The notes beneath the pieces were generated by a model, which saw nothing but the letters and a program-made list of their open reading frames with translations, made no database searches and was not told the DNA's origin. 36,447 nucleotides of DNA from an uncultured Flavobacteriales bacterium (GTDB taxonomy: Bacteria; Bacteroidota; Bacteroidia; Flavobacteriales_D; Sanyastnellaceae), in assembly GCA_905479115.1 (NCBI GenBank), contig CAJQLF010000017.1, forward strand, positions 1-36,447, written 5' to 3'. Positions 23,913-36,447 of this stretch are shown piece after piece. The position numbers and the translations under genes were made by a program. Numbering within the stretch: the first letter of the stretch is position 1; every line of letters begins with the position of its first letter.

Positions 23913-26213
23913 TCAGTGGCGGGGACGCAATAAGGTGTCCTTGCCATTGATCACTACTTCGAGTGCCTCCCCAGAACACAGGTCGACGGTTGTTTGATTC
24001 CCTCGAATATCCACTTCCAAAAGCCGATTGCGAAAATTGATCTTGAATGTAAGCCCGCTCCATGCTGGAGGCAATTGACCATTAAAATGAGGCTTGTCGT
24101 TTTTCACAGCAAAGCCGCCAAACCCTTCCACGACCGAGAGCCAGGTGCCCGCCATCGACGTAATGTGCAAACCCTCATGCACCTCCTTGTTGTAATCGTC
24201 TAAATCCAACCGAGAAGTGCGCAAATAATGCCCGTAAGCTTCCTCCATGCGACTTAGTCTCGCGGCGAGAATAGCGTGAACGCAAGGAGATAAACTGGAC
24301 TCATGGACCGTTTTGGGCTCGTAGAAATCATAATTTTCTGCAAGCGTTTCAGTGTCAAAATTGCCTCCAAAGAAATACATTCCCTGAAGAACATCTGCCT
24401 GTTTAATGAACACCGAGCGCAAGATTCGATCCCAGCTCCACTTCTGATTGATAGGACGTTGAGACGCAGGTAAGTCGGCAACTGTTAGCTGCTCTTTATC
24501 CAAAAACCCATCTTGTTGCAAAAACACGCGAGTTCCTTCCAGTCTCGGAAAGTACATTTGATCGGGGATGGTAACCCAGTCTTGGAAAACGTGGGATTCA
24601 TCGATAGCGTATTCAATAGAGAGCCTTTCCCAATCAGCGGGGTGGTGAACTTTTATCCAATCTGCCACTTCTCGGGCATATCGCATGCACCATGCCGCAA
24701 TGTAATTCGTGTACCAATTGTTGTTGACGTTGTTCTCGTATTCGTTCGGACCTGTAACACCCAGCATGACATACGCCTTTCGGTGTTCTGACCATTGAAC
24801 ACGCTGTTGCCAGAACCTTGCGACGGCCAGCAATACAGCGAAACCATTGGTCCGCAAGTAGTCTTCGTCTCCAGTGTAGTTGACATAGTTCCAAATGGCA
24901 TAGGACATGGCCCCGTTGCGGTGAATTTCCTCGAAAGTGATTTCCCACTCATTGTGGCATTCCTCACCGTTCATGGTCACCATTGGATACAGTGCAGCAC
25001 CTTTGTCAAAACCAAGTTTTACGGCATTTTCAATCGCTTTATCCAAATGTCGATACCGATAAAGCAACAATTGCCTTGCAACCGAAGCGGAATGCCCAGC
25101 TAAATAAAAAGGCAAACAGTAGGCTTCGGTATCCCAATAGCTCGCTCCCCCATATTTTTCTCCAGTGAACCCCTTCGGCCCTATGTTGAGCCGAGGATCA
25201 TCCCCTCGGTAGGTTTGATTTAATTGAAAAATATTGAACCGAATCGCTTGCTGTGAAGCCACGTCTCCCTCGATGACGATATCGGCCTGACGCCAAATCG
25301 AATCCCAAGCAGCTTTGTGTTCCTCCAGGTTTAATGCCCATCCCGTTTTTTGAGCGCGCGCTGCGTGCTCATCTGACAAAGAACGAAGCTTCGATTTCGG
25401 ATGGCGAACCGTCGTGGTAATGCCGACATACTTTTCCACTTCAAGCCATTCTCCTTTCTTCAAGTCATGCGCATACACATAGCCTGTTTTGAAATCAGAT
25501 TTAAAGGAAGTTCCCGACAACAACCTTTGGAACTCTCCCTGGTTGGAAGCAATCGTTGCACCTGTCCACATTGAGAAGCACACTCCAAAATCTGATTTTT
25601 GAGTCGATGCTTCAATTGAAGCCAATCCCTCCCCTTTAGATTCCACCGCAGAAATGGACCAAAATTGATCATCCCAATTGGAATCTTCGTTTTTGACCGC
25701 TGCGTCAAGTGCCGACGAGACTTCGACGGAGCAATTCGCAGCTTGAATTGCGTAGCGCAAACACCCCAACTCTGGCTGGGCCATGGAACAAAACCGTTCT
25801 GCGCGAACAGCAACACCCGAGCCGTTCGACATGGTCAACTTGAATTCTCTGCGCAATACGCCTTCCTTCATGTTCATCCCCCATTCAAAGTGATCGACGG
25901 ACTTCGCCGTATACAAGTCAAGGACCTCACCGTTGACCTTCACTCCTATGTCAATCCAATTTGTTGAATTCAACACCTTGGCGAAAAATTCGGGATACCC
26001 ATTTTTCCACCATCCCACCTTCGTCTTGTCCGGGTAGTACACTCCACCGAGGTAAGACCCTCTCAGCGATGTGCCTGAAAAACCTTCCTCAAAATTCGCG
26101 CGTTGTCCAAAGCGTCCATTGCCAATGGACAAAATAGATTCAAAGGATTCCACATCCGTGCCATGATTCCAGCCCGAACAGCCTAAATTCCATGAATCGA
26201 TTACGCCTGACAT
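23913..26213 (-). CDS. malP: Maltose phosphorylase (glycoside hydrolase family 65)
   Basis: The 766-residue protein is a full GH65 enzyme. It has SIGNGRFGQRANFEEGF at residues 29-45, YWDTEAYCLPFYLAG, EECHNEWEITFEEIHRNG (417-434), the general-acid motif GPNEYENNVNNNWYTN with Glu491, and a HESSLSPCVHAI segment of the phosphate site. These match maltose phosphorylases more than trehalose or kojibiose phosphorylases, but specificity within GH65 is best tested by experiment. The reaction gives beta-glucose-1-phosphate and glucose. The downstream order pgmB-GH65 and the upstream sugar kinase cover both products. ATG 26213 lies 10 bases after the pgmB stop; the longer frame from 26270 lies inside pgmB. 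Confidence 0.92.
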   Translation of the reverse strand: MSGVIDSWNLGCSGWNHGTDVESFESILSIGNGRFGQRANFEEGFSGTSLRGSYLGGVYYPDKTKVGWWKNGYPEFFAKVLNSTNWIDIGVKVNGEVLDLYTAKSVDHFEWGMNMKEGVLRREFKLTMSNGSGVAVRAERFCSMAQPELGCLRYAIQAANCSVEVSSALDAAVKNEDSNWDDQFWSISAVESKGEGLASIEASTQKSDFGVCFSMWTGATIASNQGEFQRLLSGTSFKSDFKTGYVYAHDLKKGEWLEVEKYVGITTTVRHPKSKLRSLSDEHAARAQKTGWALNLEEHKAAWDSIWRQADIVIEGDVASQQAIRFNIFQLNQTYRGDDPRLNIGPKGFTGEKYGGASYWDTEAYCLPFYLAGHSASVARQLLLYRYRHLDKAIENAVKLGFDKGAALYPMVTMNGEECHNEWEITFEEIHRNGAMSYAIWNYVNYTGDEDYLRTNGFAVLLAVARFWQQRVQWSEHRKAYVMLGVTGPNEYENNVNNNWYTNYIAAWCMRYAREVADWIKVHHPADWERLSIEYAIDESHVFQDWVTIPDQMYFPRLEGTRVFLQQDGFLDKEQLTVADLPASQRPINQKWSWDRILRSVFIKQADVLQGMYFFGGNFDTETLAENYDFYEPKTVHESSLSPCVHAILAARLSRMEEAYGHYLRTSRLDLDDYNKEVHEGLHITSMAGTWLSVVEGFGGFAVKNDKPHFNGQLPPAWSGLTFKINFRNRLLEVDIRGNQTTVDLCSGEALEVVINGKDTLLRPRH

Positions 26214-26223
26214 ATGTGCAAAC

Positions 26224-26880
26224 TTAAGGGTTGAACCCTTCAAGGATATGATCCCACGTCCTGCCCTCAAAGCCAGGTATCACATATCTCGCACCGGACA
26301 ATTCAGAGGCATTGCCTACCCCTACAACCTCAAAACCACCTGCACGCGCTGCATCAATTCCAGACTGAGCGTCCTCGAATACGATGCATTCAGGTGGATT
26401 CGCACCCAGCGATTTAGCTGCCATGAGAAAGACTTCAGGGTCGGGCTTCGACAACGTGATGTGATTTCCGTCCACCAACGCGTCAAACGCATCCAACAAC
26501 TCGAGTCGTTCCAAGATCATCGTTGCATTCTTAGAAGAAGAGCCTAAGGCTATCTTGATCCTCTTTGCTCTAAGTTCATGCAACAAATCTCTTACACCCG
26601 GCAAGGCATCTTTGGGCTGCGTTTGATCTGCGAGTTGCAGATAATGCGTATTCTTTCGATCCATGAGCTTCAATTTGGTCGCTGGATCAAGAATGAGCCC
26701 TCCTTTTCTGAGTATGTACTCTAGACTGTCAACCCGAGACACTCCTTTGAGGCGTTCGTTGTCTTCATGGCTAAATGGCACGCCCAATTCCTCCGCCAAT
26801 CTATTCCAAGCTACAAAATGATGGGCTGCTGTGTCAACAATGACTCCATCCAAATCAAATATACAAGCTTGAAACACCAT
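26224..26880 (-). CDS. pgmB: Beta-phosphoglucomutase
   Basis: The 218-residue HAD-family protein has the DLDGVIVDT motif (nucleophile Asp9 and acid-base Asp11), the cap segment LKGVSRVDSLEYILRKG (about 44-60) typical of beta-PGM, ALGSSSKNA and KPDPEVFL. It converts beta-glucose-1-phosphate to glucose-6-phosphate via beta-glucose-1,6-bisphosphate. It lies between the sugar kinase (4-base gap) and the maltose phosphorylase (10-base gap), the expected partner. Confidence 0.95.
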   Translation of the reverse strand: MVFQACIFDLDGVIVDTAAHHFVAWNRLAEELGVPFSHEDNERLKGVSRVDSLEYILRKGGLILDPATKLKLMDRKNTHYLQLADQTQPKDALPGVRDLLHELRAKRIKIALGSSSKNATMILERLELLDAFDALVDGNHITLSKPDPEVFLMAAKSLGANPPECIVFEDAQSGIDAARAGGFEVVGVGNASELSGARYVIPGFEGRTWDHILEGFNP

Positions 26881-26884
26881 GTTA

Positions 26885-27745
26885 TCAGTCGTTTAAAATG
26901 TATTTTACGTGGTAATCTGCCAATCCATCAACTGGTCGTTTGATGATCTTTCCCACGCGAATCCCCTCGCGTTCGCAAACATGGCAAAGCACATCTTGGA
27001 AGTGAAAAGCAACAGAACCAACGAAATGTATGGGAACCTCCCGGTAGTTTTTGTAACACTTCACGTGCACATCCACAAAGGACTGGAAGCCCTCTTCTAA
27101 AAGCGAAATCACTTGCGGAACCTCTCGGTGCCGACCCAGGAACGTCATAAAAGAAGCCAGAAAGACATTGGCGTTGGGCTCTTTGTAGACTCGGTTGACA
27201 ATATCGTCTTTTGAGAAATTAAACGTCGCATTGAAATCAGCCTCGACCATAGGGTCCAACTTATGGTATAGGTGCAAGGCAAGAAGTCGTTTACCAAACC
27301 AAGACCCACTTGCCTCATCCCCTAGGATGTAGGCCAAGGCTGGCACTTCCTCGCTCGTGACATGACCGTCAAAAAAACAAGAATTAGAACCTGTTCCGAT
27401 AATGCAAGTAATGGCCGGTTCGCCCGAATACGTGCTGTACGCCGCACCATCTAAATCGTGCCCTACATGCACTTTAGCATTGACGAAAACTCGCTGAAGG
27501 CCTTCTCGAATCACGGCGCAAAGCGGCTCGGAGCTGCTTCCAGCGCCATAAAAATACACCTTAACTACATCCTCCGCTATGGCAGCGGCCTCAGTAGAGT
27601 CTTGCATTTTCGCTTCAACGAGATCGGCATTATGGAAGTAGGGGTTGAAACCCATGGTATGGAATTCTCCTTCCGTCTTACCGTGCTCATCCATGATCAT
27701 CCAATCGCACTTCGTCGAGCCACTATCTGCTACTAAAATCTTCAA
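26885..27745 (-). CDS. BadF/BcrA-type ATPase, N-acetylglucosamine-kinase-like; probable glucose kinase
   Basis: The 286-residue protein belongs to the BadF/BadG/BcrA ATPase family with the ASKHA fold. Phosphate-1 motif VADSGSTKCDW is at the start, the IGTGSNSCFFDG motif in the middle, and LGDEASGSWFGKRLL follows. Relatives include N-acetylglucosamine kinases. The GH65 enzyme releases free glucose and no ROK or Glk glucokinase is present here, so phosphorylating glucose is the likely job (inference). The frame has no ATG start: TTG 27745 gives LKILVADSGS, the usual family start, while TTG 27781 would add 12 residues. It lies between gapA and pgmB. Confidence 0.78.
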   Translation of the reverse strand: MKILVADSGSTKCDWMIMDEHGKTEGEFHTMGFNPYFHNADLVEAKMQDSTEAAAIAEDVVKVYFYGAGSSSEPLCAVIREGLQRVFVNAKVHVGHDLDGAAYSTYSGEPAITCIIGTGSNSCFFDGHVTSEEVPALAYILGDEASGSWFGKRLLALHLYHKLDPMVEADFNATFNFSKDDIVNRVYKEPNANVFLASFMTFLGRHREVPQVISLLEEGFQSFVDVHVKCYKNYREVPIHFVGSVAFHFQDVLCHVCEREGIRVGKIIKRPVDGLADYHVKYILND

Positions 27746-27793
27746 ATTTTCTCGGTTTTTGGTGAAGAAGAATCCAAACAACGAAAGAGGCTA

Positions 27794-28777
<984 letters not shown>

Positions 28778-28797: not shown

Positions 28798-29769
28798 TTA
28801 AATAGACAAAATTTTCGCAATCCTCACTTCATCTTTTAGTGAGGCAGACTTATTCTCAATAACTTCCTCAAACGGGAAATACACCAGTTGGTCATTGACC
28901 ACACCCGCCATCACATTTCGTTTTCCAGACAACAATCCTTCAACCGCTGCCACACCCAAACGAGAGGCCAGCACTCGATCCGCACAGCTTGGATCGCCGC
29001 CTCTCTGAAGGTGACCGAGGACCGTTATGCGCGTCTCGTATTTGTTATCAATCGCATGAACCTTTTTTGCGATTTCAAAGGCACCACCTTCTGGATGACC
29101 TTCCGCCACAATCACAATACTGGACGTTTTATTGGAAGCTTGACCGCTGTTGAGAATCTCCACCAAGTCGTTGATGGAAATACCCGATTCTGGCGTCATA
29201 ACCGCTACAGCTCCTGTGGCAATTCCGGAATGCAATGCGATGAAACCGCTATCGCGTCCCATCACTTCTACGAAAAACAAGCGATTGTGGCTGTCTGCCG
29301 TGTCCCGGATCTTATCCACTGCTTCCACCACCGTATTGGTCGCTGTATCGAATCCAATGGTAAAATCGGATCCAGATAAATCGTTATCAATGGTTCCAGG
29401 TATACCTATGATTGGAAATCCTGTTTCTCTGCAAAAATGCATCGCCCCCTCAAAGGTGCCATTGCCGCCAATTACGACAAGCGCATCCACCTCATGTTCC
29501 AAGAGGGCTTGGTGAGCCAATCTTCTTCCTTCCACTGAATGAAAACTTTTGCAGCGGGCAGATTTCAGAATAGTTCCTCCACGGCCTAGGATTTTAGCCA
29601 CCGAACGGACGTGGAGACGTTTAAAGTCCCCATCAATGAGTCCTTGGTACCCCTGAAATACCCCTACCGCCTCGCATCCATGGTACACGGATGTTCGGAC
29701 CACCGCTCGGATGGCCGCATTCATCCCTGGAGAATCACCTCCAGAAGTCAAAACCGCGATTTTCTTCAT
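28798..29769 (-). CDS. pfkA: 6-phosphofructokinase
   Basis: The 323-residue protein aligns along its length with E. coli PfkA. It has TSGGDSPGMNAAIRAVVR (8-25), the GTIDND motif with catalytic Asp128, EVMGRDSGFIAL and VLGHLQRGG. At the site that separates ATP from PPi enzymes it keeps Gly104, pointing to ATP, but residue 103, the Mg-binding Asp of E. coli (GGDGS), is Asn here (GGNGT). It leads the maltose operon. ATG 29769 (MKKIAVLTSGGD) is the usual family start; ATG 29802 adds 11 residues and is possible. A -7 box at 29850-29843 and the palindrome beside it probably control it. Confidence 0.93.
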   Translation of the reverse strand: MKKIAVLTSGGDSPGMNAAIRAVVRTSVYHGCEAVGVFQGYQGLIDGDFKRLHVRSVAKILGRGGTILKSARCKSFHSVEGRRLAHQALLEHEVDALVVIGGNGTFEGAMHFCRETGFPIIGIPGTIDNDLSGSDFTIGFDTATNTVVEAVDKIRDTADSHNRLFFVEVMGRDSGFIALHSGIATGAVAVMTPESGISINDLVEILNSGQASNKTSSIVIVAEGHPEGGAFEIAKKVHAIDNKYETRITVLGHLQRGGDPSCADRVLASRLGVAAVEGLLSGKRNVMAGVVNDQLVYFPFEEVIENKSASLKDEVRIAKILSI

Positions 29770-29842
29770 GCTTTCAATGTGAATCAGTCCATCGTTCTTC
29801 ATTTGAACGGCAGCGAATATAAGACGTTTAAAAGCACATTTA

Positions 29843-29850
29843 CAAACTTA
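29843..29850 (-). promoter_or_regulatory. -7 promoter element of the pfkA-gapA-kinase-pgmB-GH65 operon
   Basis: TAAGTTTG on the minus strand is a perfect TAnnTTTG match. Its first three bases lie within the palindrome at 29848-29868, so a protein bound there would cover the promoter. No clear -33 TTG is seen. The leader to ATG 29769 would be about 70 bases. Confidence 0.6.
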
Positions 29851-29868
29851 GTGTAACAGATACACTAA
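29848..29868. promoter_or_regulatory. Palindromic operator, probable binding site of the Nudix-type regulator
   Basis: TTAGTGTA (29848-29855) and TACACTAA (29861-29868) are perfect inverted copies around a 5-base spacer ACAGA. The 21-bp size fits a dimeric winged-helix regulator. It overlaps the -7 box of the pfkA operon and sits about 22 bases ahead of the -7 box of the divergent regulator gene, so one bound dimer could control both. No second full copy was found in the window. Confidence 0.7.
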
Positions 29869-29889
29869 TAACGTCACCCTGCTTTATTG

Positions 29890-29897
29890 TACTTTTG
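29890..29897 (+). promoter_or_regulatory. -7 promoter element of the Nudix-type regulator gene
   Basis: TACTTTTG is a perfect TAnnTTTG match and ends only 5 bases before the ATG at 29903. The transcript may therefore start at or next to the start codon. Confidence 0.5.
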
Positions 29898-29902
29898 ACA
29901 CT

Positions 29903-30613
29903 ATGCAACAGAATGAGACCCTGCACTTGTCTGTAGACTGTGTTCTTTTCGGTTACGATGACGCAGGCCTCAAAGTCTTGTTAATCAATCAGAAGAGAAC
30001 GGAACCCGCTGACAGCAACGTAAAGCCCATGTCCCAATTACCCGGTGACTTGATCCTTCTGGATGAAGGCCTCGACGAAGCTGCAGCTCGGGTTTTGTAC
30101 GAATTAACTCAGCTGAATGGAGTCTATCTCAAGCAGTTTCATGCTTTTGGTGACCCCAACCGGGTGAAAGATTTGAAAGACAGAGCCTGGTTGCGGTCCG
30201 TCCGCACCCAGCCGGAACAACGAGTTGTAACCGTGGGGTACTTTGGACTGGTGAGTTTGCATGATTTCAATCCCAAACCTGCTTCCTTTGCAGGCAGCGC
30301 TGACTGGATTGACCTGCAGGATATAGGAGAACTCGCATTTGATCACAATGAAATTCTCTCCGGTGCAATCGATGCCTTGCAGAGTCAATTAGAAAGTCAA
30401 CACATTAGCTTCGAACTACTGCCTAAAAAATTCACCATCAGTCAACTACAGTCTCTTTATGAAGTGGTTCTTGAAAAGAAGTTTGACAAAAGAAACTTTC
30501 GCAAAAATGTCAAAAAGATGAGCCACGTGGTTCCGTTGGACGAAAAACAACAAGGCGTGATGCACAAACCCGCACAGCTTTTCAGCTTCAACCGCAATGA
30601 ACTTGAGTCTTAA
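29903..30613 (+). CDS. Nudix-domain winged-helix transcriptional regulator (NrtR/AraR-type)
   Basis: The 236-residue protein has an N-terminal Nudix domain (about 8-150; LSVDCVLFGYDDAGLKVLLI, LPGDLILLDEGLDEAAARVLYEL) and a C-terminal winged-helix part (about 155-225; PKKFTISQLQSLYEVVLEKKFDKRNFRK). The Nudix box lacks the glutamates of REUxEE needed for hydrolysis, as in NrtR-like regulators and the Bacteroidota arabinose regulator AraR, where the domain senses a ligand. Here the context suggests a sugar or sugar phosphate from maltose metabolism (inference). It is divergent from the pfkA operon across a perfect palindrome, and its end overlaps the start of the CotH gene by 17 bases, so those two are probably cotranscribed. 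Confidence 0.88.
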   Translation: MQQNETLHLSVDCVLFGYDDAGLKVLLINQKRTEPADSNVKPMSQLPGDLILLDEGLDEAAARVLYELTQLNGVYLKQFHAFGDPNRVKDLKDRAWLRSVRTQPEQRVVTVGYFGLVSLHDFNPKPASFAGSADWIDLQDIGELAFDHNEILSGAIDALQSQLESQHISFELLPKKFTISQLQSLYEVVLEKKFDKRNFRKNVKKMSHVVPLDEKQQGVMHKPAQLFSFNRNELES

Positions 30614-32906
30614 GCAACGCACGTATCGAGGTTTCATCGGATTCGTTGCGGTGTTCACCTTCTGCTCGTCCATGGCACAAGAGCTGGGAATCTTAACCCA
30701 CCCTGATAATGGTGCTGCCTTCTTAAGTGAAGAAATTCCATCTGTGCACATAACATGCGGTGACGCCATCGAATGGATGTTTGAGGAGGAGAATTGGTAC
30801 GCTGACGTAGAACACCCTGCGACGTTTATTTTCACCAGCTTGGCCGGTTCGGATACCCTGGCAAATGTGGGCTTCCGTTTGCGGGGAAACACTTCGCGAG
30901 CAGCGCCGAAAAAATCATTTAAGATCTCCTTTGATACATTCGAATCAGATCAAGAATGGAACGGTTTAGATAAATTAAATTTAAACGGCGAACACAACGA
31001 TCCCAGTGTTATCAGGTCGCGGCTTTCATGGGAGTGTTTGAGAGATGCTGGTGTCCCCGTCTCACGCGTGCAGCACGTCAACCTGTACATCAACGGAACG
31101 TTTTATGGGGTCTATGCCAACATCGAACACATCGACGGAGAATGGCTTGAAAAACGATTTGACCATGCCCATGGCAACCTCTGGAAGTGCACTTATCCTG
31201 CTGATCTGAATTTCATTAGCAACAATGCCGATGCGTACAAATTCACGCCGAGTTGGTCTGACCAACGTGTATATGACTTGAAGACCAACAACCTCAATGA
31301 TGACTACTCGGCATTGGCTGCATTCATTGACGCCTTAAACAATACTGCATTGGATGAACTGCCATGTTCATTGGAGCGAATCTTTGACGTGGATGCTTAC
31401 CTCAAAATTGCCGCTGGTGAAATTCTTTCTGGCCACTGGGACAATTACATTGGAAACCGAAATAATTTTTACCTCTACCAGCGATCGACAGATCACCGGT
31501 TGATGTACATTCCGTATGACATGGATAACACCATGGGAATCCAGTGGTTTGGGGAATGGACCACGCAAGATATTTACGCTTGGACCACGGGAAACGACCG
31601 CCCCTTGTACAGTCGTTTGCTCCAGGTTCCGCAGTACCGGGATCGGTTTACCTGGTACATCCGTTGGTGGATGGAAAACTATTACACGGAGGATTGGATC
31701 GATCAACGGGGTGATTGGCTTATCAGTCTATTGGAACCGCACATCGAAAACGACACCTTTTATTCTTCAAGCTATTCCTTCGGTTTACAAGACTTTATGG
31801 AGTCCATGGACGAGCCATGGGGATCCCATGTTGCCCATTCCCTGAATGGCTATGCGGCATCTCGGTTGTTTTGGGCCGACATCCAGGCGGACGAAATCAC
31901 AGCAGCCCCTCCCCCTGTCCAATGCTGGGCAGAAGGTCCACGATTGAACGATTCAATTCAAGTGAAGTGCTGGGTTCCCGAAAATGAAGAACTCACGTCT
32001 TGGGCTTTTGAACTGGAATTGGACATCGACGGCTCGACCAGCGAACACCCTTTGGATTTGATTGGAATCAATGAGCACGGACATGAATGGGGTACCTCGG
32101 TTCCGCTGAACAATGGCTCAGATGTGCATTGGATGGTCTCGTTCACGAATCCGGAAGGAGCGCTTAACACGTCGCCCTGCGAGCCTCAACGCATTTGGAA
32201 TACGGGATCGCCCATCCCTCTTTTGATCAACGAAGTCATGCCTGTAAACAATTCTGTTATTGCGGATGCTTCAGGCCATTACGGCGATTGGGTGGAACTT
32301 TTGAACCATGGAAGCGTTCCCATGAATGTCGGGAATTATTACATCACCAACCGGTTAATGGAACCCGCTCGCTGGCCGCTGCCAAGCGTGACGTTGGAGC
32401 CTGGACAGCACTTGCTCATTTGGTGCGATGATGAACCCGTAAACGGACCGTTGCACTCTTCCTTTACCCTGAATGGTGGTGGCGACGAAGTGTTCATTAT
32501 GCACCAAGAGGATGGTGCGTGGCGCGTTATCGATGATGCTGAATGGTCCAATGCTCCCGAAAATGCCAGCTGGGGACGATCCACAGACGGCGCGGACGAT
32601 TGGATTTGGTTTCATGACAACCTTGGCAACAGTCCTACGCCCAATGGGCCGAATGGTGTCGCCACTTCCATCGATTCATCCGCCAAGGATGAACTTTGGG
32701 ACAGCTGGAATCCAATCAATCCTTGCAACCATCCTTGTCAGATCAAATTTCCAATGGCCACAGACTGGAGTCTTATGAGCGGGTCTGGCCAACTGCTATT
32801 GACAGGATTTGGTGACCAATCTTTGCTTAATCTTCCATCTAGCACCTATCACCTCCTGCTATATCCAGATGGTAATCCTATTGCACGAAAGCTCATCATT
32901 CAATAA
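30597..32906 (+). CDS. Secreted CotH kinase-family protein with lamin tail domain and T9SS-like C-terminus
   Basis: The 769-residue protein has a signal peptide (residues 1-28, ending SMAQ). The CotH kinase domain (about 90-430) shows VGFRLRGNTSRAAPKKSFKISF with the ATP-binding Lys, IEHIDGEWLEKRF (176-188) and the metal-binding IPYDMDNTMG (305-314), so the kinase site seems intact. A lamin tail domain follows (about 541-645; LLINEVMPVNN, GDWVELLNHG). The last 60 residues end LPSSTYHLLLYPDGNPIARKLIIQ, split, which resembles a T9SS type A sorting domain. It overlaps the regulator gene by 17 bases and precedes the amylase by 7. Its substrate is unknown; a role in modifying exported proteins is a guess. 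Confidence 0.85.
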   Translation: MNLSLKQRTYRGFIGFVAVFTFCSSMAQELGILTHPDNGAAFLSEEIPSVHITCGDAIEWMFEEENWYADVEHPATFIFTSLAGSDTLANVGFRLRGNTSRAAPKKSFKISFDTFESDQEWNGLDKLNLNGEHNDPSVIRSRLSWECLRDAGVPVSRVQHVNLYINGTFYGVYANIEHIDGEWLEKRFDHAHGNLWKCTYPADLNFISNNADAYKFTPSWSDQRVYDLKTNNLNDDYSALAAFIDALNNTALDELPCSLERIFDVDAYLKIAAGEILSGHWDNYIGNRNNFYLYQRSTDHRLMYIPYDMDNTMGIQWFGEWTTQDIYAWTTGNDRPLYSRLLQVPQYRDRFTWYIRWWMENYYTEDWIDQRGDWLISLLEPHIENDTFYSSSYSFGLQDFMESMDEPWGSHVAHSLNGYAASRLFWADIQADEITAAPPPVQCWAEGPRLNDSIQVKCWVPENEELTSWAFELELDIDGSTSEHPLDLIGINEHGHEWGTSVPLNNGSDVHWMVSFTNPEGALNTSPCEPQRIWNTGSPIPLLINEVMPVNNSVIADASGHYGDWVELLNHGSVPMNVGNYYITNRLMEPARWPLPSVTLEPGQHLLIWCDDEPVNGPLHSSFTLNGGGDEVFIMHQEDGAWRVIDDAEWSNAPENASWGRSTDGADDWIWFHDNLGNSPTPNGPNGVATSIDSSAKDELWDSWNPINPCNHPCQIKFPMATDWSLMSGSGQLLLTGFGDQSLLNLPSSTYHLLLYPDGNPIARKLIIQ

Positions 32907-32913
32907 ACTCAGC

Positions 32914-35721
32914 ATGCAAATCAAGCATCTTTTCTCCGCGACTTTATTGGCCGTAGCAAACATCGGTGCTGCCCAACTCGTATGGACGGAACCTGCCTTC
33001 CCTACCATGGAAGATGAGGTAACGCTCTATTACAACAGTGCCCTTGGAAATGGAGAACTCGAAGGGGTCATCCCCGTCTACATTCACACGGGTGTTATCA
33101 CAAGCAATAGCAGCGGTCCCAGTGATTGGCAAAATGTTCAAACTGCATGGGGCACGTCCGATGCGGATGCACTCATGAACCCTGAAGGTGCGGGAATCCA
33201 CAGCTTTGATTTCAATGGCCTGACGTTGACCGACTATTATCAGCTGGATGCCAATGAAACAATAGAAAGCCTTGCCATGGTTTTTCGCAACAGCAACGGC
33301 TCCTTGGTCGGAAGGAATGCAGATGGCTCGGACATTTTCTTCGAAGTCAGCAGCGGCTCGTTCAGTACGTCCTTGCAAACCCCCGAAAACGGTTATGCTG
33401 TTTTGGACCTGGGAGAATCCCTCACCATTTTGGGACAAGCGAGTGAAACATGTGATTTGACCTTGCTTGTGAACGGCGTTGAATCCGCCTCCACCATGGG
33501 AACAGAACTGGCGTATGAATTTGAAGCCACTGCAGGTGGTCAGTTCAATTTGGAACTCGTTGGCGACAATGGCAGTATGATAGCCCAGGACGTTGCCACC
33601 ATCACGGTGCTTCCTGAGGACCCCATCACGGGCTGGCCTCCTTCCGGCTCGGAAGATGGGATTCATTACCCTAACAGCACCAGTGCGTTTCTACAATTGC
33701 ATGCCCCCGGCAAGGAATTCGTTTTTGTAGTTGGAGACTTCAATGATTGGCAGCTGAGTTTTGACTATTTAATGACGCAAACCCCGGACGGCAACAAGCA
33801 CTGGATTGAACTCGACGGCCTCGAAGCTGGTGCTTCGTATCGTTTTCACTACCACGTCATGCCGGATGATATGCGCGTGGCCGACCCCTATACTGAAGTT
33901 GTTCTGGATCCGTGGAATGACCAATGGATTCCCGAAACGACCTACCCTAATTTGCTTTCTTTCCCTAACATGCTGACCGAAAACACCCCTGTTTCCGTTC
34001 TCCAGCCTGGTGCACCCGAGTTTCCGTGGACCGATTCAAATTTCGATCGACCGAGCAAAGAATCACTGATCATTTATGAGTTGCTGGTTCGGGACTTTAC
34101 AGAAGAACGAAATTATCAAACGATTCTTGATACGCTCGATTATCTCGAGCGACTGGGAATCAATGCCATTGAATTTATGCCCGTCAACGAGTTCAATGGG
34201 AATGATAGTTGGGGGTACAATCCGACTTTTTATCAAGCATTGGACAAGGCATATGGAACCAAAGAAGCATTTAAGGCGCTCATCGATGCCTGCCATGATC
34301 GAGGGATAGCGGTCATTTTGGATGTGGTGTTAAACCATGCCGATTATCCTAACCCTTTCCTCAAACTCTATTGGAACGAAGCGAACTTCCAACCTGCTTC
34401 AAACAATCCTTGGTTCAATGAAGTATCCCCCAGTCCGGAGTCCTGGTTCTTCGATTGGAACCATGACAATGCAGCCACCCAGTACTTCATGAAACGAACC
34501 CTGTCGTATTGGGTCGATGAATACCATGTGGACGGCTACCGACTCGATTTTTCGAAAGGAATGACCCAGACGCCTGGCAATGTATCCGGCTACGATCAAG
34601 CCCGAATTGATTTGCTCACGGAGTATGCTCAGCATCTATGGGAGGAGGATGACGAGGTTTATATGATCCTCGAGCATTGGGTGGATTTATCCGAAAACCA
34701 AGCCCTCGTCAACAACGGCTTCATGGTTTGGGCCAACGTATCTCACGATTACAGTGAAGCGGCTATGGGGTATGCTTCAAATTTGAACTGGGCCAGTTAC
34801 CAGACCCAATCCATGGCAAATCCAGGTGTGGTCTCTTATCCAGAAAGCCACGATGAGGAACGATTGATGTACAAGTCCCTTGAATATGGAAACGGAAATG
34901 GAGACTACCAAGTGACAGATTTGCCAACTGCATTGAAGCGGATTGAGGCAATACAATGCTTCAACTTGCTATTGCCGGGGCCCAAATTACTCTGGCAATT
35001 TGAGGAATTGGGATACGATTACAGCATCAACACCTGCAGTGATGGGGTGACCATCAATGAAGACTGTAGAACGTCCTCCAAGCCTGTTCGATGGGATTAC
35101 CGCGATGACCCCAATCGATACCGGATTCACGAAGTGATTTCCGGCTTAGCGACGCTCAAAACAGACTATCCCGATCCGTTTCAAACCACCAATTTTAATT
35201 GGGATGTCGGTGGGTATGGCAAACGCCTTCATCTCAATGGAGAATCAATGAACGCCATTGTAGTCGCCAATTTTCAGGTAACAAATTTGAGTATGATCCC
35301 CGGCTTTCAGCATGCAGGAACATGGTATGATTATTTTTCGGGGGAACCGCTTCAGATCGATGATATTAATGCATTCATGGATTTTGCTCCGGGTGAATAC
35401 CATGTCTATGTTGACCAAGAAATTGATTTTCCTGCTCACGTGCAGTCCTTGCAAGCACCAGCAACCTCCTCAGCCCCGTTTCCCAATCCGACTTCAGGAA
35501 TGGTGCAATGGGCAATCAATCAGCCTGAGGCATTGCAGGCGGTTCGTGTCTTTGACGCAAAAGGCGCCCTGATAATGGACGCTGCATCGTTCACCATTCT
35601 GTCAAATGGACAGGGGCTCCAACTAGATTTGTCTGTTCTTCCCAGCGGGATATACTCGATTTTTGCTATTGGGAATGAGTTATTTGACTTCGCTCAAGTG
35701 CATATTATGCATGAACGTTGA
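32914..35721 (+). CDS. T9SS-exported alpha-amylase (GH13)
   Basis: The 935-residue protein starts with a signal peptide (MQIKHLFSATLLAVANIGAA-Q). N-terminal beta domains follow, then a CBM48/E-set-like domain (about 258-340; FVFVVGDFNDWQ). The GH13 barrel (about 385-760) has region I DVVLNH (470-475), region II DGYRLDF with nucleophile Asp545, region III MILEHW with general acid Glu587 and region IV ESHDEE with His646-Asp647. The C-terminal 85 residues (PFPNPTSGMVQW to IYSIFAIGNELFDFAQVHI) are a type A T9SS sorting domain. It would cut starch or glycogen outside the cell. ATG 32914 is 7 bases after the CotH stop; the frame from 32809 overlaps cotH. Confidence 0.95.
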   Translation: MQIKHLFSATLLAVANIGAAQLVWTEPAFPTMEDEVTLYYNSALGNGELEGVIPVYIHTGVITSNSSGPSDWQNVQTAWGTSDADALMNPEGAGIHSFDFNGLTLTDYYQLDANETIESLAMVFRNSNGSLVGRNADGSDIFFEVSSGSFSTSLQTPENGYAVLDLGESLTILGQASETCDLTLLVNGVESASTMGTELAYEFEATAGGQFNLELVGDNGSMIAQDVATITVLPEDPITGWPPSGSEDGIHYPNSTSAFLQLHAPGKEFVFVVGDFNDWQLSFDYLMTQTPDGNKHWIELDGLEAGASYRFHYHVMPDDMRVADPYTEVVLDPWNDQWIPETTYPNLLSFPNMLTENTPVSVLQPGAPEFPWTDSNFDRPSKESLIIYELLVRDFTEERNYQTILDTLDYLERLGINAIEFMPVNEFNGNDSWGYNPTFYQALDKAYGTKEAFKALIDACHDRGIAVILDVVLNHADYPNPFLKLYWNEANFQPASNNPWFNEVSPSPESWFFDWNHDNAATQYFMKRTLSYWVDEYHVDGYRLDFSKGMTQTPGNVSGYDQARIDLLTEYAQHLWEEDDEVYMILEHWVDLSENQALVNNGFMVWANVSHDYSEAAMGYASNLNWASYQTQSMANPGVVSYPESHDEERLMYKSLEYGNGNGDYQVTDLPTALKRIEAIQCFNLLLPGPKLLWQFEELGYDYSINTCSDGVTINEDCRTSSKPVRWDYRDDPNRYRIHEVISGLATLKTDYPDPFQTTNFNWDVGGYGKRLHLNGESMNAIVVANFQVTNLSMIPGFQHAGTWYDYFSGEPLQIDDINAFMDFAPGEYHVYVDQEIDFPAHVQSLQAPATSSAPFPNPTSGMVQWAINQPEALQAVRVFDAKGALIMDAASFTILSNGQGLQLDLSVLPSGIYSIFAIGNELFDFAQVHIMHER

Positions 35722-35739
35722 AAAGTCCTCGCATACTTC

Positions 35740-35752
35740 GTGTTGAAAACAC
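35740..35752. promoter_or_regulatory. Small perfect palindrome upstream of susC
   Basis: GTGTT-GAA-AACAC is a 5-3-5 inverted repeat that covers the probable -33 TTG of the susC promoter. It could be an operator or a weak hairpin after the amylase gene; no T tract follows. It differs from the palindrome at 29848. Confidence 0.3.
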
Positions 35753-35773
35753 ACCTTCTCAGCCTTAATTTCG
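35743..35773 (+). promoter_or_regulatory. Probable promoter of susC
   Basis: TTG at 35743-35745 and TAATTTCG at 35766-35773 (one mismatch to TAnnTTTG) are 20 bases apart. The box ends 19 bases before the first ATG of susC, the usual spacing here. Confidence 0.4.
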
Positions 35774-35792
35774 ACCTACTAACTTTCCTTTG

Positions 35793-36447
35793 ATGATGAG
35801 AAACGCACTAACCCTGATGTCCGCCTGTTTGTGGGTCGCCCTTGCACAGGCCCAATCGCTTAGCGGCGTCATTCAAGATTCCAATGGTGCGCCATTGCCA
35901 GGTGCCTCCGTGGTAGCAGATGGAATCAATGGCCAATTTACTGATAGAAATGGTCGTTATGAGCTGAGTCTTACTCCTGGAAATCACTCCGTGCAGTTTT
36001 CTTACATTGGATACATTGCTCAAAACAAGCAAGTCACCATGGGCTCAGCCAGCATTGTCTTGAATGTCACCCTCGCCGATGATGCGGTGCTCATTGACGA
36101 CGTTGTCGTCGTTGGTTATGGGGTGCAGCGGAAGAAAGAGGTCACAGGCAGCATTGTCCAAGTCAACGCCAAACAAATCACAGGGATACAAACTCCTTCA
36201 TTCGAAGCAGCACTCCAAGGGCAAGCAGCGGGTGTTCAAGTAAGCCAATCCTCTGGCATCGCAGGCGCACCATCCTTGATTCGAGTTCGCGGAGTGGCAT
36301 CTGTATCTGCAGCGGGAGATCCACTTTATGTGGTTGATGGCATTCCGATTACCCAGGAATATTTCTTGCGGGGGAATTCAGGGGCCATGAACAACAATCC
36401 CCTCGCTGCGATTAACCCGAACGACATTGAATCTGTTGAGATTTTGA
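35793..36447 (+). CDS. susC: SusC/RagA-family TonB-dependent outer membrane transporter (partial, N-terminus only)
   Basis: The frame is open from ATG 35793 to the window end, 218 residues. It has a signal peptide (ending ALAQAQ), a carboxypeptidase-regulatory-like domain (about 22-95; LSGVIQDSNGAPLPGASVV, FTDRNGRYELSLTPG), then the SusC signature DDVVVVGYGVQRKKEVTGSI and the plug domain (ALQGQAAGVQVSQ, IRVRGVASVSAAGDPLYVVDGIPI). SusC proteins import oligosaccharides through the outer membrane with a SusD lipoprotein, expected just downstream of the window. Its place after the amylase points to maltodextrins as substrate. ATG 35796 is an equal alternative start. Confidence 0.95.
   Translation, partial: MMRNALTLMSACLWVALAQAQSLSGVIQDSNGAPLPGASVVADGINGQFTDRNGRYELSLTPGNHSVQFSYIGYIAQNKQVTMGSASIVLNVTLADDAVLIDDVVVVGYGVQRKKEVTGSIVQVNAKQITGIQTPSFEAALQGQAAGVQVSQSSGIAGAPSLIRVRGVASVSAAGDPLYVVDGIPITQEYFLRGNSGAMNNNPLAAINPNDIESVEIL

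Follow-up and report, generated by a model that had tools for sequence, protein, structure and literature searches.

The window analysed here, a stretch of 36,447 nucleotides of DNA from an uncultured Flavobacteriales bacterium, holds two divergent gene units (Table 1). On the minus strand, to the left, lie the genes from pfkA to that of a GH65 family enzyme; on the plus strand, to the right, a regulator gene is followed by genes for a CotH-family protein, a secreted amylase and a SusC-like receptor. Between the two units stands TTAGTGTA-ACAGA-TACACTAA, which the earlier note had described as an exact 8-5-8 palindrome. It is found there letter for letter, and we call it O1.

Table 1. Genes, predicted operators and promoter elements of the locus, by position in the window.
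Feature	Position	Strand	Basis
GH65 family phosphorylase/hydrolase	23913..26270	-	family search
beta-phosphoglucomutase	26224..26880	-	family search
BadF/NagK-like sugar kinase candidate (scores under both curated cut-offs)	26885..27781	-	family search
gapA-like glyceraldehyde-3-phosphate dehydrogenase	27794..28777	-	name by reading of translation only
pfkA, 6-phosphofructokinase (likely start 29769)	28798..29802	-	family search
conserved pfkA -7 box, TATATTCG	29814..29821	-	17/17 in genus comparison
TTTG, likely pfkA -33 element, one base from O1	29843..29846	-	read from sequence, inference
O1, main operator (predicted), perfect 8-5-8 palindrome, core GTGT-N7-ACAC	29848..29868	.	sequence, motif search, conservation
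O2, second imperfect operator (predicted), over the regulator's own -7 box and start	29884..29904	.	motif search, matrix
regulator -7 box, TACTTTTG	29890..29897	+	sequence; genus comparison
NrtR/AraR-type regulator, Nudix-like domain and winged helix	29903..30613	+	domains, alignment, model
CotH-family protein	30597..32906	+	family search
secreted alpha-amylase with Por secretion tail	32809..35721	+	family search
O3, candidate operator before the SusC-like gene, TTCGTGTTGAAAACACACCTT, matrix score weak (11.0)	35737..35757	.	sequence and relatives
SusC-like gene -7-like box, TAATTTCG	35766..35773	+	inference from sequence
SusC-like TonB-dependent receptor, gene start (runs off the window)	35790..36447	+	sequence

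The window has no exact 8-N5-8 inverted repeat besides O1. By itself O1 is unremarkable, since a Markov null expects 0.7 such repeats per window. Within the 133-base gap between pfkA and the regulator gene, the nulls put the chance of an exact repeat at 0.3% for a spacer of 5 and at 2.8% for spacers of 0-10. When the window was searched for the motif with three mismatches allowed, two places were found, O1 and a second site, O2, with 0.03 expected.

Conservation gives O1 its decisive support, in the upstream regions of regulator orthologues, in an alignment of the genus and in matrix scores. Sites were sought up to 400 bases upstream of 92 orthologues with at least 45% identity, the window's own counted and a few coming from other families; they are part of those detected in the search, and 14 duplicate loci, 3 further duplicates, 2 loci cut near the gene and 1 partial match were dropped before the count. 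The palindrome's conservation in orthologous upstream regions, on which the earlier note had staked its reading, holds: a site of at least 12/16 stands upstream in 82 of the 92, compared with 51 of 1840 shuffles, the best match in some rows being O2 and not O1. In the remaining 10 no site at 12/16 lies within the 400 bases. As the orthologues are related to each other, they are not independent tests. The conservation reaches across genera, down to about 50% protein identity. All 17 sequences aligned from the window's genus (17 of its 22 genomes) carry the AGTGT..TACAC core of O1, and a weight matrix made from 65 operators, all from outside the genus, scores O1 at 14.3-22.6 in 17/17. That O1 is a chance palindrome within a promoter region, a reading favoured by the null expectation for the window, has next to no probability given this conservation and the 0.3% chance in the gap, and we reject it.

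The gene beside O1 encodes a protein with NrtR_WHD (2.2e-24), AraR_C and NUDIX domains, and its profile scores compare with the cut-offs as 85.8 bits vs 27 (PF21906), 33.6 vs 23.8 (PF19368) and 24.6 vs 21.1 (PF00293). On these matches it is a member of the NrtR/AraR superfamily of Nudix-related regulators. An AlphaFold model, made with an alignment of 31 sequences, has a mean pLDDT of 80.4; using Foldseek, its closest matches in the PDB are BtAraR (5bs6, 5dd4), then NrtR (3gz6). BtAraR (BT0354) is the NrtR-family L-arabinose regulator of Bacteroides thetaiotaomicron, with structures 5bs6, 5dd4, 5ddg and 5deq; as described in the accessible part of the BtAraR-DNA paper, the contacts define GTGT and are made by K179, the intercalating R180, N181, R183 and K184 (PMC4666351). 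These residues align with K196, R197, N198, R200 and K201 of the window's regulator, whose recognition helix runs K196-R197-N198-F-R200-K201. As far as the accessible part of that paper describes it, BtAraR resembles our system in its fold, its GTGT-N7-ACAC operator core, its KRNxRK major-groove contacts and its paired operators at the promoter. By sequence match, a palindromic operator with a GTGT core, predicted to be read by a KRNxRK helix, is found here, as expected of a member of the superfamily.

The two proteins also differ. Their identity is about 32-33%, K204 and R205 of the BtAraR wing align with H221 and K222, and the Nudix domain of the window's regulator has an insert of about 15 residues with the pattern DPxRV..KD..W..R..P. 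Orthologues from four other families (f3, f4, f8 and f9) share this insert, which neither BtAraR nor any of the six paralogue rows aligned has. By hand reading, the GDLILLDEGLDEAAARVLYELTQLNG stretch departs from the Nudix signature GX5EX7REUXEEXGU. In hand-read alignments, the arabinose pocket of BtAraR (R34, R86, H131 and G47-G48-F49) is not reproduced: H131 and F129 are kept, but G48-F49 becomes D-L, and R34 and R86 become K31 and T102 next to gaps. Unlike those of BtAraR, the regulator's predicted targets belong to glycolysis and starch use, and no gene for arabinose was recognised among the window genes examined or at the 87 sites read below, 8 of which stand before genes of other or unknown kind. 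With NrtR of Shewanella oneidensis and relatives, the ADP-ribose-responsive regulator of NAD genes, the protein shares a Nudix-like domain and a winged helix, but it reaches 98.6 bits where the NtrR equivalog model has a curated cut-off of 400, and no NAD gene was recognised, either among the genes of the window that were examined or at the target sites read. A sugar-related NrtR protein of the same phylum, BtXylR (BT0791), is, by the published descriptions seen in part, predicted to control xylose use (PMC3878776).

Could O1 be the operator of a different regulator family, for example Crp-like or LacI-like, with the Nudix gene a mere neighbour? Such proteins do control sugar genes in Bacteroides, according to the accessible part of one study (PMC3878776). 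No LacI-type domain was reported for the regulator in the domain search, and its fold matches are Nudix/NrtR. We consider this alternative very improbable, because the core and the contact residues match those of BtAraR, the site stands at the regulator's own promoter in 82/92 orthologues, and in six paralogue loci the half-site is changed along with the helix. The same evidence favours the earlier note's proposal that O1 is the operator of the Nudix regulator at 29903. O1 is almost certainly an operator, and very probably the one to which the adjacent regulator binds.

The changed half-site is seen in a group of paralogues that we call B. Of 11 paralogue B rows, six have Gly in place of the intercalating arginine, two have Ala and three retain it; of the last, two have Ile for the neighbouring lysine and one is unchanged. 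The six Gly loci (L310, L311, L312, L313, L316 and L319) carry TTGT-N7-ACAA near their own start, so that motif and recognition helix change together, in loci that are related to each other. A simple pairing of Gly with TTGT does not fit the other five rows (two Ala, two Ile, one unchanged), since they have no own-start site at the threshold used. Where it has Gly, paralogue B is unlikely to own the GTGT motif, because its own motif differs. The Gly paralogue and the window's regulator make a natural specificity pair, TTGT vs GTGT.

Other paralogues were seen as well. No site was found for paralogue C in loci from G000 (threshold 8) or from G051 and G080 (threshold 6). The window's own genome has another NrtR-like paralogue (G000:C68:8974-9606, L130) near what by eye is an S-adenosylmethionine synthetase-like gene, with no site scoring at least 8 within the 4.5 kb examined. 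In L321 (G049:C70), a paralogue with Arg for K196 lies beside a nicotinamide phosphoribosyltransferase-like gene (by eye), with GCGT-type palindromes on both sides of the regulator gene, and could be an NrtR of the classical NAD type. A distant NrtR paralogue of family f3 (L276, L277), with about 25-29% identity, has a perfect GTGTA-N5-TACAC 22 bases before its start.

Bacteroidetes promoters have TTTG at -33 and TAnnTTTG at -7. In all 17 genus sequences, a minus-strand TAnnTTYG box lies +36 to +38 from the centre of O1; for L016, L018 and L020 the offset of 38 was set by hand, the automatic pick having taken a spurious weak site as O1. As TTTG stands 21 bases upstream of this conserved box, O1 would abut the pfkA -33 element instead of covering the -7 box, and the TTTG next to O1 likely fits better as the -33 element than as part of a -7 box. 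The earlier note had placed O1 over the pfkA -7 box, which is probably wrong: TAAGTTTG (minus strand 29850-29843) overlaps O1 yet occurs at that position in one of the 17 sequences, the window's own, whereas the other box is there in all 17. We therefore reject the overlap for this genus. In other genera, a -7-like box overlapping the operator at +8/+9 stands before pfkA in 7 of 18 pfkA rows.

On the other side of the gap, the regulator -7 box ends 5 bases before the ATG in 14 of the 17 genus sequences and 4 bases before it in three; as TACTTTTG ends 5 bases before the ATG, the regulator mRNA is probably leaderless. O2 is operator-like in 12/17 genus sequences (score 15.8-19.0, with the matrix built outside the genus) and, by the same matrix, degenerate or lost in five. 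The centres of O1 and O2 are 35-36 bases apart in 11 of 12 sequences and 46, about a helical turn more, in one; this spacing pattern hints at cooperation, though the hint hangs on the single 46-base case. At the position of O3, a GTGT-N7-ACAC site is found in 10/13 relatives (9/12 within the genus) and absent in the other three, and the TTG -33 of the SusC-like gene would fall inside it. O2 and O3 go without mention in the earlier note, as does the wide regulon described below.

The window's own genome contains one perfect motif site. Scans that allow mismatches give fewer matches than the reversed-pattern control (5 vs 16, 8 vs 31 and 10 vs 48), so weak sites in this genome are not trustworthy singly, and we therefore relied only on conserved sites. 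A candidate site lies before pdhA, at C36:37618. By hand recount, 19 of 21 genus genomes keep the GTGT-N7-ACAC core exactly, at a distance of 103-125 bases upstream of the pdhA start, and in two the core is broken; the score is at least 8 in 17/21. A further candidate precedes the gene of a CBM48/CBM20 starch-binding protein (C6:51823, examined in the own genome). Candidates at C3:33810 and C22:6700 were left out, as neither has a clear sugar gene beside it. No site was found before eno, pyk, fbp and pgi (G000, G053, G061, G058) or pckA (G000, G053, G061), 19 genus promoters in all, which argues that the wide regulon is not intact in the window's genus. The predicted regulon of this genome is short, consisting of O1, O2, O3 and the sites before pdhA and the CBM48/CBM20 gene. 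In two genus members (L324 2203 and L325 943), a near-perfect site precedes the gene of a 429-residue protein of no assigned family, and in L325 a GH92 gene is divergent from it.

The earlier note had also proposed scanning genomes for further copies of the motif. The perfect motif, TWAGTGTA-N5-TACACTWW, occurs in 49 of 114 family genomes, and the reversed-pattern control in 1/114. We read 87 non-duplicate sites in context, taken from among the matches listed and from 13 genomes searched again, so that they are not every site of the family; target names come from family searches or similarity, a few by eye from N-termini. Central-carbon, starch or sugar-uptake genes follow 79 of the 87: 58 sites stand before central-carbon genes (pfkA 16, pyk 15, eno 6, pdhA 5, pgi 5, pdhB 4, gdhA 4, pckA 2, fbp 1) and 21 before starch or sugar-uptake genes, the remaining eight being other or unknown. 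Amylase genes are also among the perfect-motif targets in the family. The pyk sites precede an IPExxxVDY gene; in loci that reach far enough, pyk is the next gene downstream of it. In genus g3, the regulator loci read have no pfkA within 4 kb, and the regulator of g12 is separated from the pfkA site by about 3 kb; pfkA has kept the perfect site in both genera. A cultured relative, Phaeocystidibacter luteus (L058), has the pfkA-linked regulator. The motif also precedes a phosphosulfolactate synthase (ComA) gene and a serine-palmitoyltransferase-like gene (L137, L178, L189). ComA uses PEP, and these two targets could belong to sulfonolipid synthesis.

An orthologue of at least 46% identity is present in 13 of 26 genomes of other families, most of the 26 having been picked for their motif hits. 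The 13 belong to families f3, f4, f5, f8 and f9, and 11 of these 13 loci carry a site scoring at least 16.8, with none in the other two. On these matches, the regulator extends to five or more other families of the order. Among 20 loci read outside the family, the motif stands before pdhA (2), gapA (1), pfkA and the regulator (2), CBM48 (1) and the distant NrtR (2), the rest being 3-oxoacyl-synthase-like (7) or of other or unknown kind (5). In family f9, genus g29 (L266-L272), the perfect motif precedes a 3-oxoacyl-synthase-like gene (by eye) in seven species, and these sites may belong to another regulator.

If one protein acts at all these sites, then the position of the operator relative to the promoter may set the direction of control. 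For 82 gene-site pairs, we recorded how far TAnnTTYG boxes lie from the operator, in counts that related sequences inflate. Boxes are enriched at -26 to -17 (13 observed vs 0.7 expected; pyk 10, where the operator covers the start), at +8 to +14 (19 vs 0.9; pfkA 7, CBM48 5, amylases 4, pdhB 2, pgi 1), at +15 to +28 (6 vs 0.8), at +29 to +37 (12 vs 0.6; eno 6, pdhA 2, pdhB 2, GH31 1 and pfkA of the window's genus 1), at +47 to +57 (10 vs 0.7; pdhA 5, pdhB 2, fbp 1, pyk 2) and at +85 to +88 (4 vs 0.25, all gdhA). There were no boxes at +38 to +46 and no enrichment at +58 to +84 (3 vs 1.7) in these pairs. For pdhA, a distance of 47-48 is shared by three genera whose flanking sequences have diverged (5/7 pdhA rows). 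The classes at -26 to -17 and +8 to +14 fit repression and the far classes fit activation, judged by position. Activation of fbp and pckA is a guess from distance, since fbp is one locus and pckA two, with no clear -7 box. At pfkA in the window's genus, the direction of control is ambiguous.

The alternative that survives best is that O1 is local, the regulator controlling itself and the neighbouring pfkA and amylase operons, while the similar sites at eno, pyk, pgi, pdhA and gdhA are those of a second regulator that recognises this half-site too. Several observations favour it: the own genome has a single perfect site, eno, pyk, fbp, pckA and pgi have none in the 19 genus promoters, many family genomes have a second NrtR-like match, and the distant NrtR of L276 and L277 has the same perfect motif before its own start. 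We nevertheless think it unlikely, as the six Gly loci of paralogue B go with TTGT..ACAA, seven genomes with no second regulator match at E <= 0.001 (G014, G015, G031, G044-G047) each have sites at other genes, away from the regulator gene, and pdhA keeps its exact core in 19/21 genus genomes.

We therefore return to O1 as the operator of the adjacent NrtR/AraR-type regulator, with the regulon proposed here, an explanation that as a whole we hold with good confidence. In this model, a regulator dimer would put one recognition helix on each GTGT half-site. Through O1, which abuts the pfkA -33 element, it would control the operon of pfkA, gapA, kinase, beta-phosphoglucomutase and GH65 genes; through O2, which covers the -7 box, it would repress its own gene; and through O3 it is predicted to repress the SusC-like gene, with candidate sites also before pdhA and the gene of the CBM48 starch-binding protein. 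The Nudix-like pocket would take up a ligand, most likely a signal derived from a hexose, that alters DNA binding in the way L-arabinose acts on BtAraR. The same regulator would run a wider regulon of glycolysis, gluconeogenesis and starch genes in the family's other genera and, in part, in further families of the order. It would act as a repressor where operator and promoter overlap (pyk, amylases, pfkA of other genera) and probably as an activator where the operator is placed far upstream (pdhA, gdhA, perhaps fbp and pckA). The site, its conservation, the protein family, the target genes and the spacing classes are observed in sequence; from them we infer binding by the regulator, its effector and the direction of control.

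Central carbon flux switching is, to our knowledge, much less known in Bacteroidota than in Proteobacteria and Firmicutes. In Proteobacteria, Cra/FruR, of the LacI family, is one regulator over glycolysis and gluconeogenesis genes. HexR and CceR are central-carbon regulators of Proteobacteria as well, and a study that reconstructed the central carbon regulons of a mat community names, in its accessible part, these two for Proteobacteria and none for its Bacteroidetes (PMC5507952). Like Cra/FruR, HexR and CceR, the regulator described here would be a single protein over glycolysis and gluconeogenesis with repressor-like and activator-like site positions, but the protein families are unrelated and it is a member of none of theirs. 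We found no description of an NrtR-type glycolysis regulator in Bacteroidota in the literature covered, which comprised titles and the starts of abstracts, with most subscription journals outside its scope.

Our data suggest a so far undescribed master control of central sugar metabolism in these bacteria. We lean towards a dual-acting master regulator of glycolysis, gluconeogenesis and starch genes, widespread in Flavobacteriales and a Bacteroidota counterpart of Cra, with a Nudix-type sensor that carries the insert of about 15 residues, an operator position that sets repression or activation, and a regulon of which the window's genus would have kept the pfkA operon, pdhA and starch genes. 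The natural paralogues, with GTGT vs TTGT half-sites and Gly at the intercalating arginine, would offer a ready system for studies of recognition. Control by the NrtR fold would widen from NAD and pentoses to glycolysis itself, and one regulator with a defined operator, a target list and repressor- and activator-like positions would make the question of how these bacteria switch carbon flux directly testable.
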